This document shows positions 12,528-64,000 of a stretch of 64,000 bases of DNA, piece after piece; position 1 is the stretch's first letter; each line of letters opens with the position of its first letter. This stretch comes from Tetraselmis striata. Its lineage: Eukaryota > Chlorophyta > Chlorodendrophyceae > Chlorodendrales > Chlorodendraceae. The translations under genes and the position numbers were made by a program. Location of the stretch: positions 39,765-103,764 of the forward strand of contig VCJN01002047.1 in the NCBI GenBank assembly GCA_006384855.1, written 5' to 3'. The notes beneath the pieces were generated by a model. It saw only the letters and a list, made by a program, of their open reading frames with translations, searched no databases and was not told the DNA's origin.

Positions 12528-15500
12528 ATGGCGAGGAGCGTGCCGGGGGTGATGATGGTGGCGACGACTGCTGCGCCATGCCGGTGGCGGAAGAGCAGCA
12601 CGCTGCTTTCGCCGGCGGGCGGGCCTGGCCGCAGTGGCACGCGGCGTCCGCTCAACCGCTGCGCATCGGTGCCGGCGCGCGACGCGGAGCTGAGGCTGCC
12701 GCAGGGCTGGGAGCAGCGCACTCGGCTGCTCTACGCGGCATTGCCCAACCTGGAGCACGATAAGGAGGGGCACCCGGAGCAGGCCGCCCGGGTGCCCGCC
12801 ATACTGGAGGCGCTGGAGCGCTATGGGCTGCGGGGGGAGGAGCTGGCGACACAGGTGCGCCGTGACTGGGGCGGCGGAAGGCGAGTCGGCGGGAGATGGC
12901 AATACAAGTGACTGAGTATCCGACAAAGCAATATACTTGCCGGCGCGGTCGACAATCAGGGCGCTTACGGCTCCAGGTGTCCCCTGGCCCTCCGCCTTCC
13001 CCACTGATCCCATCCCCACGCTCGTCCGCCCTGTGTCGCAGGATATCCTTGAGCTGGCTACGCCGCGGATGGCCACGCCCGAGGAGGTCGCGGCCGTGCA
13101 CATCCCAGCGTACACCACCGAGCTGCCCAACGTCTGCCGGTCCAAGGTGCGCTGCGGCATGGGCTTTACGACTGTCGCAATACTCCCCGCCGCCTCCGCC
13201 GGCCGAGATTTAGGCCGAGCTCACTCGCCGCGTGCCCGGTAGGGGCCGGGCGTGCTCGAGGGCGGGGGGCCGACATACTTCACGGAAGGATCCGCCAGCG
13301 CGGCATTCCTCTCCGCGGGCGCGGGCATCCAGCTGGTGGACGGCGTGGTGGCGGCATCGCGCGCCAGGGCCGCAGGCGACGGCGCTGGGGCGGCCGGCTT
13401 CGGAGTCTGCCGGCCGCCAGGTGCGTCCCGGGCCGCCTGGGCTCGACTCAGCTCCAAATGAGCGCCCCCTGACACGCGCGCTCCCGCCCTCTCGGTGCCG
13501 CCTGCCTCGTGCCTCGTGCCGCACCGCTGGCCGTCGATCTGGGCGGCTGCCTGACGCGCCATGGCGCCCTGTAGGCCACCACGCCATCCCGGCGGGTCCC
13601 ATGGGCTTCTGCCTTTTCAACAACATCTCCGTCATGGCGCGCCACGCCCAGGTATGTGAGCGCGCCACCAATCCCCCCGCACAGGCAGCGGCGGCATCCC
13701 CAGCTCCCCAGGTCCGACGTTGGCATTGGCCCCAGCGGATCTCCCATGCGTTGGTTCCTGAGCGGCGCACCTCCATGCCACCGCAGAGCGCTCATGGGCT
13801 GAAGAACGTCATGATTTTCGACTTTGATGTGCACCACGGTGGGAACACAGGCCCTCCCCCCCCCCCCCCCCGGCTCTCCTCACTGCCATTGCGGCGCCTC
13901 GCCGCGCCGCCTCATTGCTGTCCAATGCCGCGCCCCGTGACGCCTTGCGTAGGTAACGGCACGCACGATGCCTTCTACAAGGACCCCTCTGTGCTCTTCG
14001 TCAGCACCCATCAGGTGGCCCCACCTCACCAGCATCCTCTCCCCTCAATCCGCCTCAGCCCCCCCCCCCCCACCGTCCAGGGGCCGCATGCCTCGCCCCT
14101 GCGGCGGCCAAGTTAGCCCCTGCCCCCTCCCCACTGCCTCCCATTCAGGCGGGCGGCTACCCAGGCACGGGCCTGATGACGGAGGTGGGGGAGGGCGACG
14201 GGGAGGGCTACTCCATCAACCTGCCGCTCCCAGGTGCGCCGAGGTGGGGGTTGCGGGGAGGGGGGGGGGGGGGGGGGAGGGGCACCACGCTGCGCCACCG
14301 TGCAAGTGGGTTCCGGGGGGACGGGGCTGAGGTGCGCCTCACACGCACCACCAGGTGACAGCGGGGACTCCTCCATGCGGGCTGCCTTTGAGGAGGTGGT
14401 GCAGCCTGCCGCCATGCGCTTCAAGCCGGACATCATCCTGGTGAGCCCCATGCATTAAAAGGGGGGGGGGGGGGGCAGTCAATACCCGCACAATCATTGG
14501 AACTACCCTCGCGTGCATTGGTAATAATGAACTGTTACCACATCACTTGATTGGGTACCCGGGTCCCCGAAATAACGAAAGGTTTGCAGTGTGAAGAGGA
14601 TATTCCCATGCTGTGCTTGCGCTGTGTTCCGAGAGACTATGAGATGGGCGTAGGCACTCCGTCCTTCTTCACGCGGGGGGAAACAACAATGTCAATATGT
14701 AGCAAACCAAAACAAAATCACGGCTGCAGCATGCAACAAGTGCATCGATAATTACGCAGAGTACTCAGATGTAGTTTGACTTCTTCATACGTTTATCCTC
14801 GTGATGAATGAGGCCCAGGGGGGGTTGGGGCAGAATCGGTACTCATGAGGGGACCCAAAATGAGTTTCCAGGTACCGCAGCCGCGCCGCTCACTGTGTGC
14901 CCACCAAATGCCGCCGCGCATGCAGGTCTCCGCAGGCTACGATGCGCACTGGCGAGGTGCGCCTGTCCCCCCCCCCCCCCCCCCCCCTCCCTCTCCCGCC
15001 CCCCCTTCCTTCATCCTGATGCAATCTCGGGCCCATCCTGAAACTAGCCTATCTGCCCAGGTGCGTGCGGAACGTTTACCGATGCGCGCGCGATAGGCAG
15101 TGCGAACTCGTTCCATTCGGTCGGAAAGGCGATTTCTGCCCATAGTGGCAACCTCCCAAGCATGTGCAGTGCGTCATGCATGAGTTGACTGGTCCGGCCG
15201 TGGTGGGAAACGCGTCAAAGTGCAATGCACCGTGATAATAAAGCTCCTGCGCCGTCGTCGCCGTACGGTTAGCCGCCGCCGTCCGATCCTACTGGGTGCG
15301 CTGTGAGACTTCCACTTGGTCCGTATGCACGTGGTGTCACGTGTGCAGGTCACGGGTACATGGTGTGTGTATGATCGCAACACGACAGCCTGGCGGTGAT
15401 TGCTGTGCAGATGCCGTCTGAGCGATCTGGGCATGTGCACATGGCAGCTAGCTGTACACCGCAGGGTGTGCGGGTGGGAAGCGCGGTACGGCCCCCCGAG

Positions 15501-49718: not shown

Positions 49719-51424
49719 ACAGGGCTGCCCTCACCGTGCCAAGTGTGCCACACACAGGGTCAGCCCCACGGGGAAGCAGCACATGAAGCGCATCAAGGGC
49801 GCCATGCTGGCTGACGTGCTAGCCACCCTGCTGTCTGGCCTCGCCGGAGGTACCCCCCCCCCCATCTCGGCGACAGTCGCAGTTTACTTTTAACCCGTCG
49901 GCTGGCATGCCGTTGGATTTGATTTGGTTTACGCAATCCCTTGTCTTTGCTACGCAGGAATGCCTGTGACAACCTACTCTCAGAACAACGGCATCATCTC
50001 CATGTCCAACTGCGCCTCGCGCATCGCCGGTGTGCATGGCCACCTTGCCGTGCCTTCCCTCCAAGCCACACCAGAGACTGATGCCCTGCTTTATCCCACC
50101 CTCGCCCATGACCTACCCTGCCTGCCGTGTGCGTCGTCTTCCACAGGGCTGTTCTGCTGCGCGTGGCTGATCATGTTTGGCGTCTTTGCCAAGTTTGGCG
50201 CCTTTTTTGCAACCATCCCAAACTGCGTTCTTGGTGGCATCAGTGCGTACGTCATTGGAAATGTCATTGTATCCGGCATCAAGATTCTCTGCCTCGAGCC
50301 CGCCACCCGCCGCAACCGTGTCATCCTCGCCACCTCACTTGTGCTGGGCATTGGCATCGAGATGGTCCCACAGGTGACACCAGACTTTATTTTTGGGTTA
50401 CTGGCCACTGGCATTGAAATAATCGGCACTGAGCTCGGTCCAGTCTGAATGTAGCAAGCGCTGAAGCGTACTCCTGTGATTGCTGACTATTGCCGGGCGC
50501 CGTTGTGTCGATCTGCGTGCAACTTGAACAGCTGCTGAGCCAGCTGTGGGTCGCCGAGCCGGGAAGCAACGCGCTGGTTGCTGGCCTGAGCAGCAGCATC
50601 GTCGGGTATGTCGCCTTTCCCGTCCGCTACGCGCAGTGGCAGATCGACCCCTCTCATGCGCTCTCCATCTCATGCAGTAGAGGCAATCCACCGCCTGACG
50701 TTGTCAAGTAGTAAAGGTCCAAGGATTACGGGATTAAAGTATATTCTATGGGTGCCGACGCCACCAATAAGACCCCTTTTTATAAGCCTCAAATTGGGCT
50801 TGCCAGCAACCTAAAACAACATGTGCCGCTATAGTTTGGTCTAAATTGGACCTCTGACAGGCAGGGCAGGTTCTTATTCGAAATGTTCGTAGTACCGGGC
50901 CGGCACCCATGGGTATCTGGGGATATCAAATATACTATATTATAGCGACCAGGTATGGACAGCAGAGAGCTCTGATGGACCCATGCCGGGCGACGTAGAA
51001 AATGGCCATGTTCGTACTCGGTGGGTTAGCGGGGCGGTGGGTAAGGCAATGGATGGATGGATGGATGGATGGATAAATATGGCGCAACCCTTTGGCGCTC
51101 GGTGATGACGCATCCCGCCCTGCTGCGCCCCCATACAGAATGCTGCAGAATGGCGTCAGCCTGGGCGCACTCGTGGGCGTCCTGCTCAACCTGGTCATGC
51201 CCATGTCCACACCGGAGGAGCTGGATGCTGTGCGCAGCATCGGCGACGAGCTGCGCGGCATGGTGTTGCCCACCACTTCGGCACCCTCTCAGACCCCTCT
51301 TGTGGTGCGGTCAGACAACTCGCCCTCTGCCCGCAGCACGGGCGGGGCCAGCAGCAGCGATACTGAGCCTACCGAGAACAAGCGCTACACCCCTCCCGCG
51401 GGCCGCACTGACACTTCTGCATGA
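46446..51424 (+). CDS. NCS2/NAT-family nucleobase permease, UapA (xanthine/uric acid) type
   Basis: Membrane purine:cation symporter. Mapped exons: 46446-46510, 46631-46674, 46857-46950, 47097-47259 (or 47277), 47467-47542, 47655-47873, 47996-48079, 48933-49047, 49202-49298, 49507-49616, 49758-49849, 49958-50029, 50147-50373, 50532-50605, 51139-51424, in phase, giving 605 or 611 aa. Motifs in order: DYRQLCTPVL; GFQHALG (the QH motif); PPVVSGTTVVLIG; LEYLGFGFATL...VEMFGSPF; DLLDTVGDVSATSE (the acidic TM8 motif); and MPVTTYSQNNGIISMSN, the NAT signature with Q-N-N-G as in fungal UapA-type carriers. Then GKFGAFF-like and IPNCVLGG segments and a hydrophilic Ser/Thr/Pro tail follow. The intron after 46950 is GC-AG (AG|GCAAGC). 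The first exon opens on an acceptor, so a few N-terminal residues are missing. The motifs suggest xanthine/uric acid rather than uracil. Confidence 0.92.
49672..49717. repeat. (CA)n microsatellite in a permease intron
   Basis: A (CA)n tract preceded by CCCCTCCCAA, between the exons 49507-49616 and 49758-49849. A short C-rich part again precedes the CA repeat. Confidence 0.9.
50783..50880 (+). repeat. Dispersed repeat, uninterrupted copy
   Basis: Continuous counterpart of the repeat at 31165-31415 (TATAAGCCTCAAATTGGGC, then GACCTCTGACAGGCAGGGC). It lies in the last permease intron (50606-51138). Confidence 0.75.
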
Positions 51425-54875: not shown

Positions 54876-55287
54876 TGTTATGCTCCATTTCCCTATAGCC
54901 ATAATGTTCTGCTATACTAGCAGGTATAACCCCCGCAAAGGTAGTACGACTACGCATCCGCGGAGTCGCTGTACATATTAGTATTGCGGGCGTAAATATT
55001 AGTAGTATAAGGCCGAGGACTGTTCTGGAATTCTCTAGAGTTCTCTGACTCAAGCCTTACGTGGCTAACACAGCACGGGTATCCCATGACACCCGGCTAA
55101 CATAGCACAGGTATGACTATGACCTCGGCGGGTATAAATACCGCCTCGGACAAGTCTACTAGGTAGAATTCAGAGACAGAACTATAACCCAGGAACCCCT
55201 GTAACCAGAAGAGATTGGCCATACTTTCTAAATCCTTCCGCTGTATCCTAAAGGGCCTAAAGAACAGGCTTAAGCTAGAGCCTAACA
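54876..55287 (+). repeat. 5' long terminal repeat of unit 1
   Basis: 412 bp, bounded by TGTTA...TAACA inverted ends. Contains a TATAAATA box at 55133-55140 flanked by GGCGGG and CCGCC, a TGTAA motif at 55200-55204 that could serve as poly(A) signal, and two ~20-bp direct repeats (GGCTAACA(C/T)AGCAC(G/A)GGTAT). Confidence 0.93.
55133..55140 (+). promoter_or_regulatory. LTR TATA box
   Basis: TATAAATA within a near-palindrome (GGCGGTAT-type arms), about 190 bases upstream of gag. It is the likely promoter of the element and is also present in the 3' LTR. Confidence 0.6.
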
Positions 55288-55289
55288 CT

Positions 55290-55301
55290 TGGTTTCGGAG
55301 C
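55290..55301 (+). other. Putative tRNA primer-binding site
   Basis: TGGTTTCGGAGC starts two bases after the LTR end. It begins with TGG (complement of the tRNA CCA end) and resembles the initiator-Met tRNA site used by many plant elements (TGGTATCAGAGC). Which algal tRNA it matches cannot be determined here. It is repeated at 61576-61587 for unit 2. Confidence 0.75.
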
Positions 55302-55326
55302 TTAGACAGCGGTAAGCGACGTAAAG

Positions 55327-56487
55327 ATGGCTACACCAGGAGAGACGCCACCTGAGGACAGCGGAAGCTTTCCGGTAGCGGCCACTGCCGGCGAAGCACA
55401 GCCGATTCCGCTTGAAGGAGGTCAAGAGGGCACGCAACCGACCCTCGTAACCATGATGAGCATGCTTCAACGACTAGCCGACCGAGTCGAGACTATGTCG
55501 ACGGAGCAAGCGAGGATGCAAGATGTAGCGCAAGCTACAACGGCGGCAACGGCGGAGATTCGCCGCTTGGACGAGTACGTGCGACAAGGCTTCAGTCATT
55601 TCGACGACCGAGTGAACCGGAGCCGAGTTGTAGAGCAGCAGATGCGAGACCAGCTTCGTTCTGCCCGGACCAGCGACATGCCTGGGCTCATGCCGAGCGA
55701 TGTGAAACCAGCGAAGATCGAGAAGCTATCGACTACGAATATCGACGAGCTACGGAACTGGTTTCGTCATGCACGGGGTTACCTGAAATATCACAACGTA
55801 AACCCGGAGGAACCTCGTAGCGTGTACTGGGCATCTGGCTATTTTCACGGACCCGTATCCAAGTGGTGGTACGCGCAAGTGGCGAGTACGCACGACGAAA
55901 TTGGCGGCGGTTTTACCGGTATTACGCACATGGAGGCGGCACTAATCACCGAATTCTGTGGACGTACACCGGCGAAGCAAGCTCGTATCAATCTGGATCG
56001 CGCGACACAGCGGACTACAGTACAGAAGTACGCGAATTATTTCCGCGAGCAACTACTGGAGTTACCCCATCGTCACGAGGAAGATAATGTACATGACTTC
56101 CAGCGCGGACTGAAACCCCATATTCGAAAGGAAGTTGCCCTGAAAAACCCTAAGACCCTGGCAGAAGCTGTACAGGCAGCTCTGGCTGTTGAAGCTGCGG
56201 AGCGGGAGACAGATGTGCACCGCGAGATCCGTCGCGAGCGCCTAAACATCATGGACGACGATGGCGACGACGACGAGCAGTACTACAGCAGTGCTGAGGG
56301 TGAGGCTACAGAACAAGAAGATGACCTGTTGATGGCGCGGCGATTGACCGAGGAGGAGTTTGAGAGATTTAAGAAGGAAGGTCGCTGCTTTATCTGCAGA
56401 GCGAAAGGTCATGTTGCGTCCGCGTGCCCGAGCAAGAAGAAGAAGATTTCTGAATATCGACCCAGAAAGACCCGGCCGGGAAACTAA
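55327..56487 (+). CDS. Gag polyprotein of unit 1
   Basis: 386 aa. An N-terminal disordered stretch is followed by a coiled-coil-like region (residues about 40-110), then a retrotransposon capsid-type domain (residues about 135-260; WFRHARGYLKYH, SVYWASGYFHGPVSKWWYA). An acidic stretch (DDDGDDDEQYYSS) and one CCHC zinc knuckle near the C-terminus (CFICRAKGHVASAC) follow. The stop codon is immediately preceded by GGGAAAC in the register expected for -1 frameshifting into pol. It should form the particle and bind element RNA. Confidence 0.93.
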   Translation: MATPGETPPEDSGSFPVAATAGEAQPIPLEGGQEGTQPTLVTMMSMLQRLADRVETMSTEQARMQDVAQATTAATAEIRRLDEYVRQGFSHFDDRVNRSRVVEQQMRDQLRSARTSDMPGLMPSDVKPAKIEKLSTTNIDELRNWFRHARGYLKYHNVNPEEPRSVYWASGYFHGPVSKWWYAQVASTHDEIGGGFTGITHMEAALITEFCGRTPAKQARINLDRATQRTTVQKYANYFREQLLELPHRHEEDNVHDFQRGLKPHIRKEVALKNPKTLAEAVQAALAVEAAERETDVHREIRRERLNIMDDDGDDDEQYYSSAEGEATEQEDDLLMARRLTEEEFERFKKEGRCFICRAKGHVASACPSKKKKISEYRPRKTRPGN

Positions 56488-56517
56488 GACGTGAGTCGGC
56501 CGCGCGCGGCGCGCGAC
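56478..56517 (+). promoter_or_regulatory. Predicted -1 ribosomal frameshift site (gag/pol)
   Basis: The heptamer G GGA AAC (56478-56484) fits X-XXY-YYZ exactly in the Gag frame and is followed at once by the Gag stop. The -1 frame is open from 56454 through the pol region. A GC-only self-complementary segment begins about 10 nt downstream (GTCG at 56495-56498 pairs with CGAC at 56514-56517, with GCCGCG/CGCGGC inside). The same arrangement is kept in unit 2. Confidence 0.75.
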
Positions 56518-56627
56518 AGGGTGAAGGACTGTCCCCTAAAACGGCTCGCGAGACTACAGAAGTACAGCCCTCGTATCCTCGAACGACACTGAGGCCTGAT
56601 TTCCTCCACAAGGACTTCAGCGACTGG

Positions 56628-59600
56628 ATGGTACATCGCGAATTATTTCACGAGTACACGAAGAAATACGGACCCTGCGACCTGGACGGAGCTTGCGATA
56701 ATGACGGCCTGAATTCTCAAGTTTCTGGTAGTTTTTGCTGTCCGACGCGCCCATTTCAGGAACAGGATCTCGGAGAATATCGGCGTATTTGGCTAAATGC
56801 CCCGTATGACCAAATTGAAGAATTTTTGGGCCACTACCTTCGACAGAAGTTATTGCATCCGCATCTACGAGCAATTATTGTGGTCCCAAAATGGTCGCGT
56901 AAGCCGTGGTTTCGACTACTTAGAAATTTTCGTCTGGTGGATGAGTTGCCAGCGGAGACTTCTGTGTTTACGTGTCCAACGAACGATGGCATAGAAGGTG
57001 CGAGACAAGATGTTGGCCCCACTCGATGGGCGACACAGATCTACGCTGACGATGGCGCCGGCGTACGGTTTCTACCGCAGCACCTGAGAACCCCACCGAA
57101 GCCTGAGTGGACGCACTCGAAGGTTCTAGTAACCGATGGAAGACGAGTGCTTCTGACTGTAGAAGACAGCGGACTGATTTGGTTTCCAGAAGGCAAGCGC
57201 GGCGACACGGACGCGACGCCGGAGACAACAGCAGTACGACGATTACACGAGCAAACTGGGTACCGGGTACAGGAGAGCAATCTACGGTACCTCGGCACTC
57301 AGCGGACGGGAGACAACCGGTGTCCCGTATACCTGTATCGCGTTCGTCGTAATACTGTACCTACGAAGACCCCTTTGAACCGTGCATTATGGACAACCTG
57401 GAAGAAATTATTGGAGGCACGAAGTACGGGTTATCTGGAGACGGAGACAGTACGCTACCCACTACGGTACGAAAGCTTCGGCGAACAAATTGATGAATAT
57501 GTCAACCGTAACGTCCGACTACCTGGCGAAGACTCCACATCGCGTTTGTGCAACGTATCTTCACCGAGTGGTACCCGACTGCTGACTATTACTGGCGAAT
57601 TGCGAGGACGACACTGTAAAATACTGGTGGACTCTGGTGCAACCGAAAATTTTGCGAGTACCGAATGGGTGCAATTGCATCAGTGCCCTACAGTATCCGG
57701 AGGAAAACACCGTATAAAACTGGCGAACGGCAGTATGAGTACCAGTACCAAACGGCTGAGGAGCGAAGTACTTACCGTAGGAGCTTTCGACTATAAATTG
57801 GACGCTATAGTTACAGACCTGGAGAAATTCGACATTATTCTCGGACAACCTTGGCTGGAAACAGTTAATCCTGACATCGACTGGACTGCTAAAATTATTA
57901 AACACCGGAAGACTGGACAACACATTGCTACAGCGGAACAGTATACAGTACCTACGACGGTTTACCACCTGGACGCGGCTAAGATGGCGAAGGAGCTGAG
58001 GAAGAGTCGCGGCGAGGAACTGTTTGCTGTTGCGGTACGCGAGGTGTTCGATGCGGTAGCTGAGCTGCGCACGGACCAGTCGACCGAGTGGACCGAGGAG
58101 CTCAAGGAGTCCCTTATGGAGTTTGCAGACATCATCGCGGAGCCTACTGACCTGCCACCGGAGCGTGAGTTCGACTTTGAGATCAACCTGGAGAGTGATG
58201 AACCCCCCAAGGAACGAACGTACCGTATGTCACCAGCGGAGTTGCAAGAGGTACGGTCACAACTGGAGGAATTGTTGGCAAAAGGGTGGATTCGTCCGTC
58301 CAAGTCAAACTACGGCGCCCCAATTTTATTTGTGCGTAAGAAAGACGGCACTCTGCGTATGTGTGTGGACTACCGTAAATTGAATGACCTTACGAAGAAA
58401 GACCGGACCCCGCTTCCTCGTATCGACGAATTATTGGACTCATTGCATGGTGCGACTATTTTCAGTACTCTGGACCTGTACAAAGGCTACCATCAAGTAC
58501 GAATTAAACCGGAAGACATCCACAAAACAGCGTTCCGGACACACTATGGACTCTACGAGTACTGTGTGTTACCTTTCGGCTTGACAAACGCCCCAGCTGG
58601 ATTCCAGACTATGATGAACCGTGTTTTGAGCCCATATCTCGGCAAATTCTGCGTGGTATACCTGGACGACGTGCTGATCTACAGCAAGACAGCTCAAGAG
58701 CATCTCGAGCACATCAGATTGGTGCTACGGGAGTTGCAACGACACCACTTGCATATCAAGCTGTCGAAGTGTTCGTTCGGCCGTACTAGCGTGGAGTTTT
58801 TGGGCCATATCGTCGAAGCAGGACAGATCAAGATGGACCCCCGGAAGGTGGAAGCAGTTCAACAGTGGCCCGTGCCGAAGACAGTAAAGGACGTACGAGG
58901 TTTTCTCGGCCTTGCTGGCTATTACCGCAAGTTCATCCATAACTTCGCGGCTATTGCGGCGCCACTACATGACCTGACGAAGAATCAACCGGAGTTTGTG
59001 TGGACGCCTCGTGCTGATGCGGCGTTTCGTGCATTAAAGGACGCAATGGTACGAGCACCTGTACTGAGTATACCGGACACATCTGCGGACGCCCGTTACA
59101 CATTGTATACAGATGCTTCTGGATTTGCAGTGGGAGCTGTGCTGCTGCAAGATCAAGGCTCAGGACTTCGACCTGTCGCGTACCATGCACGCAAGATGAA
59201 CAAACACGAAGTTCACTACCCGGTACATGAGCAAGAGTTGTTAGCGGTTCGTGATGCACTCATCAAGTTCCGATGCTACCTTGATGGAGCGGCGGGCTTT
59301 ACGGTCATCACCGACCATGACACGCTACGGCACTTCTTTCGCCAACGCGATTTGTCGACGCGGCAAGTACGATGGCTGCAAGTGTTTGCGCCTTACCAAC
59401 GACATATGGACATCGTCTACAAGCGAGGAGCTGCCAACCATGCGGACGCCCTCTCTCGGCGACCCGACTTGAAGGATGCGCTACAGAAGCTAGATCTGCT
59501 GAACAACTGGTCAGAAGACGAGGCTGACTGCGAAATAAATTCAGTTTTATTTGCTATGGAGTCGCGACTACAAGCGGACAACAAGTTTTACGACGAAATC

Positions 59601-60641
59601 AAGACCGCATATGACTCCGACGAGTACCTGAAATCGCGGAAAGCTTTACCATCCTGGCTAGTACGTCACAGTAATGGTCTACTGTACGCCTACGGCTCAC
59701 GACTTTACGTACCAAATGTGGCGGACCTGCGACAACGAGTACTGTACGAACTACATGACGCGCCTACTGCTGGACACCCAGGAGGACGACGACTACTGGC
59801 GCGTACTGTGGAACTGTACTGGTGGCCCCGTATGAAACAGACTGTCACTAACTACGTGCGACGCTGCCCTACCTGTCAACGTACTAAGGCGGCCCGGCAT
59901 AAGCCATACGGCTTACTTCAGCCCCATGACGTACCGTCACGACCATTTGAGGTAATATCCCTGGATTTAATCACAGATCTTCCGGAGTGCCAGGGGTATG
60001 ACTCAGTAGTGATTTTCGTATGTCTACTGTCAAAGCGAGTAATTGTTGAGCCAACTACGAAGACAGTTACTGCTGAAGGCCTGGCGGAGATTATGCATCG
60101 CTCAGTTTTTCGTCATTTCGGCCTACCGGCTAAACTCATCTCTGACCGAGACCCCAGATTTATGTCGGAATTCTGGCAAAATATGTTCAAGACCATGGGT
60201 ACTAAGCTGAACATCTCTACAGCTTTTCATCCAGCAACCGATGGCCAGACGGAACGGACTAACCAAACTTGGGAGCAAGTGCTACGCTGCTACGTGCACC
60301 CCCTGCACGATGATTGGGTCAACCACCTCACCAACGTGGAGTTTGCGATCAACGCTGCTCAGTCGACTTCGACTACTATGTCCCCTTTCAAGGCGACTTT
60401 GGGATTCGAGCCGACTACACCTGCTACTACTCAACTCGCAACCGAGCCAACTCGAGCTCTTCCGGAACACGTCAAGTATGTACAGGAGCTTCATCGCTTC
60501 GCGCATGATTGCGTACTGGAGGCTCAAACTCGTATGCAGACTGCAGCTAATCGTAAACGACTACCCGTACCATTCAAGACCGGCGACAGAGTTAAGCTGA
60601 AAGGCGTCTCATCTGAAGTTTATTCAGCAACCCTGTGCTAA
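56628..60641 (+). CDS. Pol polyprotein of unit 1 with Dam-like and Nudix-like N-terminal segments
   Basis: 1337 codons from the first in-frame ATG, though the frame is open from 56454. Residues about 14-118 resemble phage Dam-type adenine methyltransferases (CDLDGACDNDG; IWLNAPY in place of the usual NPPY; IIVVPKW...WF). Residues about 160-235 resemble a Nudix domain (FPEGKRGD, then TPETTAVRRLHEQTGY) lacking most catalytic Glu. Then aspartic protease (DSGA, Asp335), RT (YRKLNDL; YLDD at 678-681), RNase H (TDAS, about 829) and integrase (HHCC zinc finger from about 1042; catalytic Asp, Asp, Glu at about 1112, 1172 and 1208). The frame ends at TAA at 60639, out of register with the downstream GPF/chromodomain part. 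Confidence 0.92.
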   Translation: MVHRELFHEYTKKYGPCDLDGACDNDGLNSQVSGSFCCPTRPFQEQDLGEYRRIWLNAPYDQIEEFLGHYLRQKLLHPHLRAIIVVPKWSRKPWFRLLRNFRLVDELPAETSVFTCPTNDGIEGARQDVGPTRWATQIYADDGAGVRFLPQHLRTPPKPEWTHSKVLVTDGRRVLLTVEDSGLIWFPEGKRGDTDATPETTAVRRLHEQTGYRVQESNLRYLGTQRTGDNRCPVYLYRVRRNTVPTKTPLNRALWTTWKKLLEARSTGYLETETVRYPLRYESFGEQIDEYVNRNVRLPGEDSTSRLCNVSSPSGTRLLTITGELRGRHCKILVDSGATENFASTEWVQLHQCPTVSGGKHRIKLANGSMSTSTKRLRSEVLTVGAFDYKLDAIVTDLEKFDIILGQPWLETVNPDIDWTAKIIKHRKTGQHIATAEQYTVPTTVYHLDAAKMAKELRKSRGEELFAVAVREVFDAVAELRTDQSTEWTEELKESLMEFADIIAEPTDLPPEREFDFEINLESDEPPKERTYRMSPAELQEVRSQLEELLAKGWIRPSKSNYGAPILFVRKKDGTLRMCVDYRKLNDLTKKDRTPLPRIDELLDSLHGATIFSTLDLYKGYHQVRIKPEDIHKTAFRTHYGLYEYCVLPFGLTNAPAGFQTMMNRVLSPYLGKFCVVYLDDVLIYSKTAQEHLEHIRLVLRELQRHHLHIKLSKCSFGRTSVEFLGHIVEAGQIKMDPRKVEAVQQWPVPKTVKDVRGFLGLAGYYRKFIHNFAAIAAPLHDLTKNQPEFVWTPRADAAFRALKDAMVRAPVLSIPDTSADARYTLYTDASGFAVGAVLLQDQGSGLRPVAYHARKMNKHEVHYPVHEQELLAVRDALIKFRCYLDGAAGFTVITDHDTLRHFFRQRDLSTRQVRWLQVFAPYQRHMDIVYKRGAANHADALSRRPDLKDALQKLDLLNNWSEDEADCEINSVLFAMESRLQADNKFYDEIKTAYDSDEYLKSRKALPSWLVRHSNGLLYAYGSRLYVPNVADLRQRVLYELHDAPTAGHPGGRRLLARTVELYWWPRMKQTVTNYVRRCPTCQRTKAARHKPYGLLQPHDVPSRPFEVISLDLITDLPECQGYDSVVIFVCLLSKRVIVEPTTKTVTAEGLAEIMHRSVFRHFGLPAKLISDRDPRFMSEFWQNMFKTMGTKLNISTAFHPATDGQTERTNQTWEQVLRCYVHPLHDDWVNHLTNVEFAINAAQSTSTTMSPFKATLGFEPTTPATTQLATEPTRALPEHVKYVQELHRFAHDCVLEAQTRMQTAANRKRLPVPFKTGDRVKLKGVSSEVYSATLC

Positions 60642-61074
60642 GCTACGCGATCGCTACGTGGGCCCCTTCGTCATTACAGAGCAGATCTCGCCAGTTGCTT
60701 TCCGATTGCAACTACCTGCGGGCGTACGAGTCCACGACGTGGTGCACGCGAGTATGCTGGAAAAGTGGTATGACGACCCTGACCAACCGGCGAAGTCTGA
60801 ACGAGTACCGATTGTCCATGACGCAAACCGATTCCATGTTCAGGACATACTCGATGTTGCCTTCAACAACAATGGCACTGGACTACTGTTTCGAGTGCGA
60901 TGGGCGTTCCCGTACAACGTACCAAGCGAAGACACCTGGGAGCCCCTACGCGGAGTCAAGCACCTGGACATTTTCCGGTCGTTCTTACTGTCTAAATCAT
61001 ACCGACAGTTTACTGAGAGCCCAGACTTCATTCGGTTCCGGAATCGCTACCCAAGCCGAGTACCTTCCGCCTGA
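60642..61074 (+). pseudogene. Detached 3' end of pol: integrase GPF region and chromodomain-like segment
   Basis: Read in the +1 frame relative to the upstream pol ORF: RDRYVGPFVI, then HASMLEKWY, then a chromodomain-like part (VQDILDVAF...FRVRW...EDTWEPL) that in chromoviruses targets integration to histone-marked chromatin. The frame change lies around 60600-60620, at KLKG in the upstream frame, consistent with a single-base indel. It ends at a stop at 61074. Confidence 0.75.
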
Positions 61075-61148
61075 ACTTCAAAAATCAAGACCAAGACTGT
61101 AGTTTCCTGTAGTTCTGTGACACCTGCACAGCGAGGACGCTTGTGCTT

Positions 61149-61161
61149 AAGGGGGAGAGAG
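61149..61161 (+). other. Polypurine tract
   Basis: AAGGGGGAGAGAG directly before the 3' LTR, the expected plus-strand primer site. Confidence 0.85.
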
Positions 61162-61573
61162 TGTTATACTCCATTTCCCTATAGCCATAATGTTCTGCTA
61201 TACTAGCAGGTACAACCCCCGCAAAGGTAGTACGACTACGCATCCGCGGAGTCGCTGTACATATTAGTATTGCGGGCGTAAATATTAGTAGTATAAGGCC
61301 GACGACTGTTCTGGAATTTTCTAGAGTTCTCTGACTCAAGCCTTACGTGGCTAACACAGCACGGGTATCCCATGACACCCGGCTAACATAGCACAGGTAT
61401 GACTATGACCTCGGCGGGTATAAATACCGCCTCGGACAAGTCTACTAGGTAGAATTCAGAGACAGAACTATAACCCAGGAACCCCTGTAACCAGAAGAGA
61501 TTGGCCATACTTTCTAAATCCTTCCGCTGCATCCTAAAGGGCCTAAAGAACAGGCTTAAGCTAGAGCCTAACA
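61162..61573 (+). repeat. Central LTR shared by units 1 and 2
   Basis: 412 bp, same TGTTA...TAACA ends as the first LTR, with about 5 differences by eye (for example TGTTATA for TGTTATG). It serves as 3' LTR for unit 1 and 5' LTR for unit 2, with no host DNA between. Confidence 0.93.
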
Positions 61574-61612
61574 CTTGGTTTCGGAGCTTAGACAGCGGTA
61601 AGCGACGTAAAG

Positions 61613-62774
61613 ATGGCTACACCAGGAGAGACACCACCTGAGGACAGCGGAAGCTTTCCGGTAGCGGCCACTGCCGGCGAAGCACAGCCGATTCCGCTCG
61701 AAGGAGGTCAAGAGGGCACGCAACCGACCCTCGCATCCCATGATGAGCATGCTTCAACGACTAGCCGACCGAGTCGAGACCATGTCGATGGAGCAAGCGA
61801 AGATGCAAGATGTAGCGCAAGCTACGACGGCGGCAACGGCGGAGATTCGCCGCTTGGACGAGTACGTGCGACAAGGCTTCAGTCATTTCGACGACCGAGT
61901 GAACCGGAGCCGAGTTGTAGAGCAGCAGATGCGAGACCAGCTTCGTTCTGCCCGGACCAGCGACATGCCTGGGCTCATGCCGAGCGATGTGAAACCAGCG
62001 AAGATCGAGAAGCTATCGACTACGAATATCGACGAGCTACGGAACTGGTTTCGTCATGCACGGGGTTACCTGAAATATCACAATGTAAACCCGGAGGAAC
62101 CTCGTAGCGTGTACTGGGCATCTGGCTATTTTCACGGACCTGTATCCAAGTGGTGGTACGCGCAAGTGGCGAGTACGCACGACGAAATTGGCGGCGGTTT
62201 TACCGGTATTACGCACATGGAGGCGGCACTAATCACCGAATTCTGTGGACGTACACCGGCGAAGCAAGCTCGTATCAATCTGGATCGCGCGACACAGCGG
62301 ACTACAGTACAGAAGTACGCGAATTATTTCCGCGAGCAACTACTGGAGTTACCACCTCGTCACGAGGAAGATAATGTACATGACTTCCAGCGCGGACTGA
62401 AACCCCATATTCGAAAGGAAGTTGCCCTGAAAAACCCTAAGACCATGGCAGAAGCTGTACAGGCAGCTCTGGCTGTTGAAGCTGCGGAGCGGGAGACAGA
62501 TGTGCACCGCGAGATCCGTCGCGAGCGCCTAAACATCATGGACGACGATGGCGACGACGACGAGCAGTACTACAGCAGTGCTGAGGGTGAAGCTACAGAA
62601 CAAGAAGACGACCTGTTGATGGCGCGGCGATTGACCGAGGAGGAGTTTGAGAGATTTAAGAAGGAAGGTCGCTGCTTTATCTGCAGGGCGAAAGGTCATG
62701 TTGCGTCCGCGTGCCCGAGCAAGAAGAAGAAGATTTCCGAGTATCGACCCAGAAAGACCCGGCCGGGAAACTAA
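61613..62774 (+). pseudogene. Gag of unit 2, frameshifted near its N-terminus
   Basis: Same protein as unit 1 Gag except for a one-base insertion at about 61733-61740 (CTCGTAACC in unit 1, CTCGCATCCC here). The ATG frame at 61613 is thereby diverted, and the remaining 344 codons stay open from 61740, including capsid-type domain and CCHC knuckle. Use of the internal ATG would yield an N-terminally shortened Gag. Confidence 0.88.
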
Positions 62775-62804
62775 GACGTGAGTCGGCCGCGCGCGGCGCG
62801 CGAC
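62765..62804 (+). promoter_or_regulatory. Predicted -1 frameshift site, unit 2
   Basis: G GGA AAC (62765-62771) followed by the Gag stop and the same GC-only stem region as unit 1. Confidence 0.72.
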
Positions 62805-62914
62805 AGGGTGAAGGACTGTCCCCTAAAACGGCTCGCGAGACTACAGAAGTACAGCCCTCGTATCCTCGAACGACACTGAGGCCTGATTTCCTCCACAAGG
62901 ATTTCAACGACTGG

Positions 62915-64000
62915 ATGGTACATCGCGAATTATTTCACGAGTACACGAAGAAATACGGACCCTGCGACCTGGACGGAGCTTGCGATAATGACGGCCTGAA
63001 TTCTCAAGTTTCTGGTAGTTTTTGCTGTCCGACGCGCCCATTTCAGGAACAGGATCTCGGAGAATATCGGCGTATTTGGCTAAATGCCCCGTATGACCGA
63101 ATTGAAGAATTTTTGGGCCACTACCTTCGACAGAAGTTATTGCATCCGCATCTACGAGCAATTATTGTGGTCCCAAAATGGTCGCGTAAGCCGTGGTTTC
63201 GACTACTTAGAAATTTTCGTCTGGTGGATGAGTTGCCAGCGGAGACTTCTGTGTTTACGTGTCCAACGAACGATGGCATAGAAGGTGCGAGACAAGATGT
63301 TGGCCCCACTCGATGGGCGACACAGATCTACGCTGACGATGGCGCCGGCGTACGGTTTCTACCGCAGCACCTAAGAACCCCACCGAAGCCTGAGTGGACG
63401 CACTCGAAGGTTCTAGTAACCGATGGAAGACGAGTGCTTCTGACTGTAGAAGACAGCGGACTGATTTGGTTTCCAGAAGGCAAGCGCGGCGACACGGACG
63501 CGACGCCGGAGACAACAGCAGTACGACGATTACTCGAGCAAACTGGGTACCGGGTACAGGAGAGCAATCTACGGTACCTCGGCACTCAGCGGGCGGGAGA
63601 CAACCGGTGTCCTGTATACCTGTATCGCGCTCGTCGTAATATTGTACCTACGAAGACCCCTTTGAACCGTGCACTATGGACAACCTGGAAGAAATTATTG
63701 GAGGCACGAAGTACGGGTTATCTGGAGACGGAGACAGTACGCTACCCACTACGGTACGAAAGCTTTGGCGAACAAATTGATGAATATATCAACCGTAACG
63801 TCCGACTACCTGGCGAAGACTCCACATCGCGTTTGTGCAACGTATCTTCACCGAGTGGTACCCGACTGTTGACTATTACTGGCGAATTGCGAGGACGACA
63901 CTGTAAAATACTGGTGGACTCTGGTGCAACCGAAAATTTTGCGAGTACCGAATGGGTGCAATTGTATCAGTGCCCTACAGTATCCGGAGGAAAACACCGT
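62915..64000 (+). CDS. Pol polyprotein of unit 2, 5' part (Dam-like, Nudix-like, start of protease)
   Basis: Open from ATG at 62915 to the window end. It is collinear with unit 1 Pol and has only scattered substitutions. It covers the Dam-like segment, the Nudix-like segment and the protease active site (DSGA near 63917). Both copies keep these segments open, which speaks against their being random junk, though the copies are too young to show much selection. Confidence 0.88.
   Translation, partial: MVHRELFHEYTKKYGPCDLDGACDNDGLNSQVSGSFCCPTRPFQEQDLGEYRRIWLNAPYDRIEEFLGHYLRQKLLHPHLRAIIVVPKWSRKPWFRLLRNFRLVDELPAETSVFTCPTNDGIEGARQDVGPTRWATQIYADDGAGVRFLPQHLRTPPKPEWTHSKVLVTDGRRVLLTVEDSGLIWFPEGKRGDTDATPETTAVRRLLEQTGYRVQESNLRYLGTQRAGDNRCPVYLYRARRNIVPTKTPLNRALWTTWKKLLEARSTGYLETETVRYPLRYESFGEQIDEYINRNVRLPGEDSTSRLCNVSSPSGTRLLTITGELRGRHCKILVDSGATENFASTEWVQLYQCPTVSGGKHR

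Follow-up and report, generated by a model that had tools for sequence, protein, structure and literature searches.

A Ty3/gypsy retrotransposon Pol from Tetraselmis striata with Dam-like and Nudix domains upstream of the protease

We analyzed a 64,000-nucleotide (nt) stretch of contig VCJN01002047.1 of Tetraselmis striata (called the window below, at its full length), whose 3′ end consists of two tandem copies of a retrotransposon with one long terminal repeat (LTR) in common. Copy 1 spans ~54876 to 61573 and copy 2 extends from 61162 to beyond the window end; the stretch from 54874 is repeated from 61160 with 98.7% identity over 2841 nt, and the LTR limits of both copies were placed by eye. 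The LTRs, a gag with capsid and zinc knuckle, and the order protease, reverse transcriptase (RT), RNase H, integrase identify a Ty3/gypsy LTR retrotransposon (Table 1). In copy 1, the Gag capsid matches Pfam families PF19259 (E = 2e-8) and PF03732 (E = 1.4e-5), the zf-CCHC (E = 0.0058) and integrase (rve) matches lie slightly below the Pfam cut-offs, and the chromodomain PF00385, the mark of a chromovirus, is also sub-threshold (E = 0.0023; E = 0.0076 in P0003, a related Pol), making the element at most a candidate member of that group. A DIRS-type element was considered and rejected because a protease and a DDE integrase (rve) are present.

As a preliminary description of this locus stated, Pol contains about 330 extra residues between gag and the protease, which we refer to as the head, and the motifs it listed (DLD, NAPY, VVPKW..W, and RRLHEQTG) are all in the sequence. 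The head comprises a Dam-like domain and then a Nudix domain, giving a Ty3/gypsy Pol in which both precede protease, RT, RNase H, and integrase. The two folds that had been proposed are present: both were modeled, and Pfam profiles agree with the predicted folds, which resemble phage methyltransferases and the Nudix structure 3hhj, respectively. The domains do not directly adjoin as had been described, since 69 residues of tail and linker separate the Pfam Dam and Nudix matches and the Dam-like unit reaches to about residue 201, with its GPTRW..VYAD segment found also in relatives that lack Nudix.

The Pfam Dam family PF05869 matches pol residues 57–154 with E = 1.4e-5. Weak matches of the window head to the NCBIfam model phage_N6A_met (E = 0.0076) and to a PHROGs DNA methyltransferase family (E = 0.017) accompany it, the latter with a competing portal-protein match (E = 0.03). 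Across an alignment of 21 head sequences, window included (A3), Pfam Dam was matched at E ≤ 0.1 in 13 members (best 2.3e-8), and 5 of the 19 records of the head profile search carry PF05869 as precomputed annotation. A Foldseek search with the Dam model returned 11 BFVD matches at E ≤ 0.001, to predicted phage N6-adenine methyltransferases. In a second comparison with PDB, solved methyltransferases ranked top, led by a cap-specific adenosine methyltransferase. At the level of profile and fold, the domain belongs to the PF05869/phage N6-adenine methyltransferase family. The phage enzymes share the pattern YGPxDLDxAxD ... WLNxPY ... PxxxxxxWFR in the same order; they differ in carrying NPPY rather than NAPY/F, and the phage genes that were fetched encode separate proteins. 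Phage tblastn matches were weak (E = 4e-3, best of 15 among 535), and profile comparisons of the head with phage Dam proteins gave probabilities of 96.5 and 75, values that are not independent because the phage proteins had been chosen by similarity.

For the Nudix domain, the profile match in the window Pol (PF00293, E = 1.8e-6) scores 28.4 bits and exceeds the Pfam threshold of 21.1. NCBIfam (YtkD Nudix, E = 0.0017) and PHROGs (MutT/NUDIX, E = 0.023) gave weak matches to the window head, and its comparison with PDB chain sequences gave none under 0.001, the best being a MutT at 0.054. The Nudix model matches Nudix structures, with 3hhj found by Foldseek at E = 6.3e-6, and the Nudix matches include Dcp2, RppH, and ADP-ribose/CoA pyrophosphatases. 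Profile and fold together place the domain in the Nudix superfamily.

A protein search with residues 45–375 of Pol against 5.8 billion proteins recovered two further Pols, P0002 (57% identity, 95% coverage) and P0003 (44%, 95%), both of which repeat the window's order of head, protease, and RT. A profile search contributed P0022 and a further 18 records; with the two Pols, 20 protein records besides the window hold a whole or partial head, one of them (P0021) covering just 14% of the query. No DNA locus of these relatives was confirmed in viral contigs (A2, A4, and P0003 queries) or genome contigs (A2). Identities of P0002 and P0003 to the window are 64 and 54% in the Dam part, 62 and 49% in the tail and linker, 56 and 48% in Nudix, 48 and 41% in the protease, and 86 and 79% in RT; the Dam and Nudix parts are better conserved than the protease and less so than RT. 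In a midpoint-rooted tree of 16 of the 21 A3 rows (columns 93–300, weak deep supports), head sequence occurs in seven diverged groups. The head thus occurs in relatives and is conserved where this could be measured, and this recurring feature is, as judged from these comparisons, very probably maintained by selection.

P0022 and five relatives have a Dam-like domain and no Nudix, and in P0022 the Dam-like sequence passes straight into the protease. Pfam at E ≤ 1 finds Dam in 3 of these 6 records (best 1.3e-4), the RVP_2 protease in 5, and NUDIX in none. Profile comparison of this group with the window family gives an alignment confined to the Dam part (columns 7–157; probability 99.3, E = 3.4e-20), a partly selected result in that the same profile (A2) had recovered P0022. 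Because six records hold the Dam-like domain without Nudix, the two modules are separable. Of the captured pair envisaged earlier, both folds stand, and a single inseparable capture is rejected; the one group may have acquired Nudix or the other may have lost it, and either state could be the older. One Nudix-less record, P0024, is a Dam and protease fragment on a 2.24 Mb public contig, and this group therefore occurs in at least one well-assembled genome.

The catalytic motif of the Dam family is (D/N)PP(Y/F), from which nearly all head domains depart by Ala at position 2. Motifs were counted in 22 of 27 sequences (A5; drawn from the window and P0002–P0027, leaving out P0010, P0012, P0014, P0015, and P0021, in which the motif region is lacking): NAPF occurs 11 times, NAPY 5 times, and HAPY, HAPL, NALF, NAQF, IAQF, and HPPY once each. 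DLD retains its second Asp almost without exception, and N-A-P-[YF] is found in 16 of the 22 rows, in both groups. Since Ala is common to 21 of the 22 rows, including those without Nudix, it is a family-wide variant and not decay of the window copy, which modifies the weakening proposed earlier from NAPY. KsgA/Dim1 enzymes, with their NIPY or NLPY motifs, show Pro at position 2 to be dispensable in that branch, and NAPY/F accordingly does not prove inactivity.

Catalytic Nudix boxes follow REUxEExGU, with three Glu residues. The box of copy 1 reads RRLHEQTGY, in which two of the three are gone, and that of copy 2 RRLLEQTG. Among the 13 of 21 A3 rows that extend to the box, the fifth place of REUxEE is acidic in all, the second is Glu in three, and the sixth in two; the full set (RE..EE) occurs only in P0003 and P0005. 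The weakening proposed earlier is thus apparent in the window copy and most rows, with these two as exceptions. Where the first Nudix Glu would stand, the window has Ala, which had been counted as a further sign of weakening; by itself this Ala is no sign of decay because the box of NUDT7 also lacks this Gx5E Glu. NUDT7 is the closest solved sequence to the P0003 Nudix (E = 1.6e-5) and has the same GGKRDPTD-type box. Compared with the CoA diphosphatase (NUDT7-type) subfamily, P0003 reaches 25 bits with NCBIfam NF007980 (cut-off 134), and all NCBIfam Nudix subfamily matches of P0003, P0005, and P0010 lie far under the cut-offs. P0003 and P0005 fall outside the rest of the tree with weak support, a placement that fits an ancestral hydrolase whose Glu residues would have been lost later. 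With two of three catalytic Glu lost, the Nudix of the window family is most likely a binding or structural module.

The gag frame of copy 1 ends at the heptamer GGGAAAC, where slippage by −1 would lead into pol; GGGAAAC is the gag-pro slip site of Mason-Pfizer monkey virus and simian retrovirus 1. The heptamer and the next nine bases are identical in copy 2 (heptamer at 62765), and PAGK stands at the matching place in P0004, P0019, P0020, and P0021 (protein level only). The head would form the start of a predicted −1 frameshift Gag-Pol product, and because the gag frame ends at this candidate slip site, it would be made only in that product. In P0020, a single open reading frame (ORF) contains Dam sequence along with what looks by eye like a zinc knuckle, supporting the gag-Dam order elsewhere.

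Several retroelements have taken up comparable domains. DIRS-type retrotransposons carry a Dam-like methyltransferase domain after RNase H, described in these sources as of unknown function (PMC3266345, PMC3783388, PMC6338049). It belongs to the same Pfam family, PF05869, and likewise lies within a retroelement Pol; DIRS elements have the order RT, RNase H, methyltransferase together with a tyrosine recombinase and lack an aspartic protease and DDE integrase, whereas the window element has Dam before the protease, followed by Nudix, and has both of those enzymes. A Gypsy lineage of the brown alga Ectocarpus, with a C-terminal chromodomain, has a conserved NADAR domain at the Pol N-terminus (PMC12477816) and thus also a foreign, nucleotide-related N-terminal domain in a Ty3/gypsy Pol; the domain differs, and the cited part of that lineage's description names neither Dam-like nor Nudix domains. 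A Klebsormidium Gypsy element whose Pol includes Dnmt3, reported to be under purifying selection, and dinoflagellate retrotransposons with DNMTs have also captured DNA methyltransferases, although these are cytosine-C5 enzymes that the same source, in the part cited, calls structurally unrelated to Dam-like ones (PMC5890265). Orchid Gypsy elements encode an AlkB N6-methyladenosine demethylase reported as active in vitro (PMC9289625), again an adenine-methylation enzyme taken up by Ty3/gypsy elements, but this one removes the methyl mark, is encoded in an extra ORF, and belongs to elements of land plants. In betaretroviruses, a dUTPase lies N-terminal of the protease, and retroviruses are reported to have taken up dUTPase more than once (PMC1224870); the betaretroviral enzyme is described as functioning fused to nucleocapsid (PMC3621094). 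The likeness here is one of position only, a nucleotide pyrophosphatase between nucleocapsid and protease: the dUTPase fold differs, no methyltransferase-like domain is present, and the hosts are vertebrates. Among Pfam hits to E = 10, no dUTPase match was found in the window Pol. By title and abstract, none of the literature matches listed describes a Ty3/gypsy Pol with Dam and Nudix, and an earlier mention in a review on adenine methylation is possible. The head is a real, conserved variant of a known retroelement habit, the uptake of nucleic-acid-modifying domains, and is undescribed in the literature searched.

We favor, at a probability of roughly 0.55, the explanation that the head is a particle-packaged part of Pol that handles nucleic acid or nucleotides, with a hydrolase that has decayed in the window copy. 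Under this explanation, the −1 frameshift would place the head first in Gag-Pol, in a minority of Gag molecules, and after cleavage by the adjacent protease it would stay in the virus-like particle by the nucleocapsid, the template RNA, and RT. From there it would work on the nucleotides and nucleic acid of the element itself, in the manner of the betaretroviral nucleocapsid-dUTPase, which occupies the same position. In the ancestral state, Nudix may have hydrolyzed a nucleotide derivative, to clean dNTPs or to trim the ends of RNA, and the Dam-like part may have bound template or freshly made cDNA, or methylated it; Nudix would remain a cleaner in elements of the P0003/P0005 type and a binder in those of the window type. 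Taken by itself, such a role inside the particle, which draws on analogy, is possible at somewhat less than even odds.

A number of observations weigh against this explanation. The Dam score of the window (25.3 bits) is slightly below the Pfam cut-off of 28.1, the Dam model has no match in PDB at E ≤ 0.001 by Foldseek, and P0022 has no Pfam Dam match even at E ≤ 10. An unexplained PHROGs portal-protein match (56592–57590) recurs in 6 of the 21 A3 members (best 0.0013), more than any PHROGs Nudix or methyltransferase family, although the latter have far better E-values; a PHROGs family without function is matched, also unexplained, in five (best 7.6e-4). NUDIX reaches E ≤ 0.1 in only 4 of the 21 (best 2.9e-13), and identity to the window falls to 49 and 32% in the Nudix-to-protease stretch of P0002 and P0003. 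Between the two window copies, the ratio of non-synonymous to synonymous substitution rates (dN/dS) is 0.37 for the head, from 7 non-synonymous and 6 synonymous changes that are too few alone, and 0.54 for the Nudix part, from five substitutions. Most relatives are fragmentary, several with broken motifs, and selection on the Nudix part may therefore be weak. The RNA 3′ of the candidate slip site folds stably (−28.6 kcal/mol), but to a degree matched by shuffled sequences (z = −1.03; z = +0.50 for a shorter piece). Copy 1 is probably not autonomous, since its pol frame closes at 60641 and the integrase tail lies in a different one; P0003 has both in a single frame.

One alternative, which we regard as rather unlikely while giving it weight, is that an active Dam-like adenine methyltransferase marks new element DNA or RNA as host-like or protects it, NAPY/F being a working variant of NPPY/F. 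The Dam fold and family match, the near-invariant second Asp of DLD, and the retention of N-A-P-[YF] in both groups, with NPPY in phage relatives, are consistent with this, as is the precedent of KsgA/Dim1; the Ala at position 2 nevertheless lies outside the usual motif, and no target-recognition part was identified. N6-methyladenine has been reported on expressed genes of several unicellular eukaryotes including Chlamydomonas (PMC12695648), and the 5-methylcytosine methyltransferases of other retroelements include the Gypsy Pol case under purifying selection (PMC5890265), but the DIRS version of the domain is presented as without known function (PMC3266345).

It is less probable that the head is a captured passenger, tolerated and eroding with no present role. 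The scarcity of the three Nudix Glu (2 of 13 rows), the broken motifs of several fragmentary relatives, and the weak NUDIX scores of most members could reflect such erosion; the presence of head sequence in seven diverged groups, the conservation of Dam and Nudix beyond that of the protease in the two groups that can be compared, and the retention of Dam even without Nudix argue against it. We give still less credence to chemistry at RNA ends or NAD/CoA caps, by which the methyltransferase-fold part would recognize or modify a 5′ adenosine and Nudix would cleave caps or ADP-ribose/CoA derivatives, countering host RNA surveillance. The cap-specific adenosine methyltransferase that heads the solved matches of the Dam model, the Dcp2, RppH, and ADP-ribose/CoA pyrophosphatases among the Nudix matches, and the NADAR (NAD/ADP-ribose) domain reported from Ectocarpus (PMC12477816) point in this direction, but a Nudix substrate is not readable from such matches, the subfamily scores are far under their cut-offs, and the window copy is without two of three catalytic Glu. 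That neither fold is real and the motifs are chance resemblances is scarcely credible, and we reject it: the window's Dam score is just short of its cut-off, yet the Pfam results for the window and for its relatives agree with each other and with the predicted Nudix and methyltransferase folds.

If the packaged, nucleotide-handling head favored here does sit in the dUTPase slot, this would suggest that reverse-transcribing elements recurrently need pool protection or self-marking and meet that need by different folds. The unexplained methyltransferase domain of DIRS elements gains a differently placed relative, and the conserved NAPY/F together with families that have intact or lost Nudix residues offers natural comparisons for testing function. 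A more far-reaching proposal, which we hold to be unlikely in full, is that the window element represents an undescribed Ty3/gypsy branch packaging its own marker or reader of adenine-methyltransferase fold and a Nudix cleaner of nucleotides or RNA ends, the Nudix later becoming a non-catalytic reader in some families, parallel to and independent of the retroviral dUTPase.

Table 1. Features of the two retrotransposon copies, in window coordinates.
Feature	Position	Strand	Basis or remark
5′ LTR, copy 1 (TGTTA...TAACA)	54876..55287	+	Repeat of the stretch from 54874
Primer-binding-site-like TGGTTTCGGAGC	Directly after 5′ LTR of copy 1	+	
gag frame (stop to stop), with capsid matches and a single CCHC zinc knuckle	55306..56487	+	Pfam
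pol ORF, 1395 residues	56454-60641	+	
Candidate slip heptamer G GGA AAC, gag frame	56478..56484	+	Directly 5′ of gag stop TAA 56485-56487
Dam-like domain, copy 1, motif NAPY	56610..57056	+	pol residues 53-201; Pfam core 56622-56915
Nudix core, copy 1, residues 224-300, box GKRGDTDATPETTAVRRLHEQTG	57123..57353	+	Pfam, fold
Nudix-to-protease stretch	57354..57587	+	Least conserved part of the head
Aspartic protease (LVDSGAT)	57588..57899	+	Pfam PF08284, PF13650, PF13975
RT, RNase H, H2C2, integrase core (residues 627-1260)	58332..60233	+	Pfam
Integrase tail: SH3_Tf2-1 and weak chromodomain	60601..61074	+	Frame differs from copy 1 pol
Polypurine-tract-like AAGGGGGAGAG	Just upstream of LTR 61162..61573	+	
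LTR common to copy 1 (3′) and copy 2 (5′)	61162..61573	+	Repeat; limits by eye
Dam-like domain, copy 2	62897..63343	+	
Nudix core, copy 2 (RRLLEQTG)	63410..63640	+	

The head of copy 2 is 98% identical to that of copy 1, and its pol frame begins at 62741 and has met no stop where the window finishes. Copy 2 carries one extra base at 61736, in the 5′ part of gag, which therefore splits the gag frame into 61592-62107 and 61665-62774. The head-to-tail arrangement of copies with one common LTR (54876-64000) is what inter-copy recombination or the insertion of a multimer would be expected to produce. In a lichen alga, putative centromeres have been reported to be enriched for a chromodomain LTR element, in the part of that study cited (PMC12542154). 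Elsewhere in the window, a long open frame at 24409-26550 matches subtilase (E = 5.3e-27) and nidogen-like (E = 1.1e-9) domains, and fragments of a histone deacetylase gene (13214-14113) and a xanthine/uracil permease gene (49894-50445) are probably ordinary intron-split genes.
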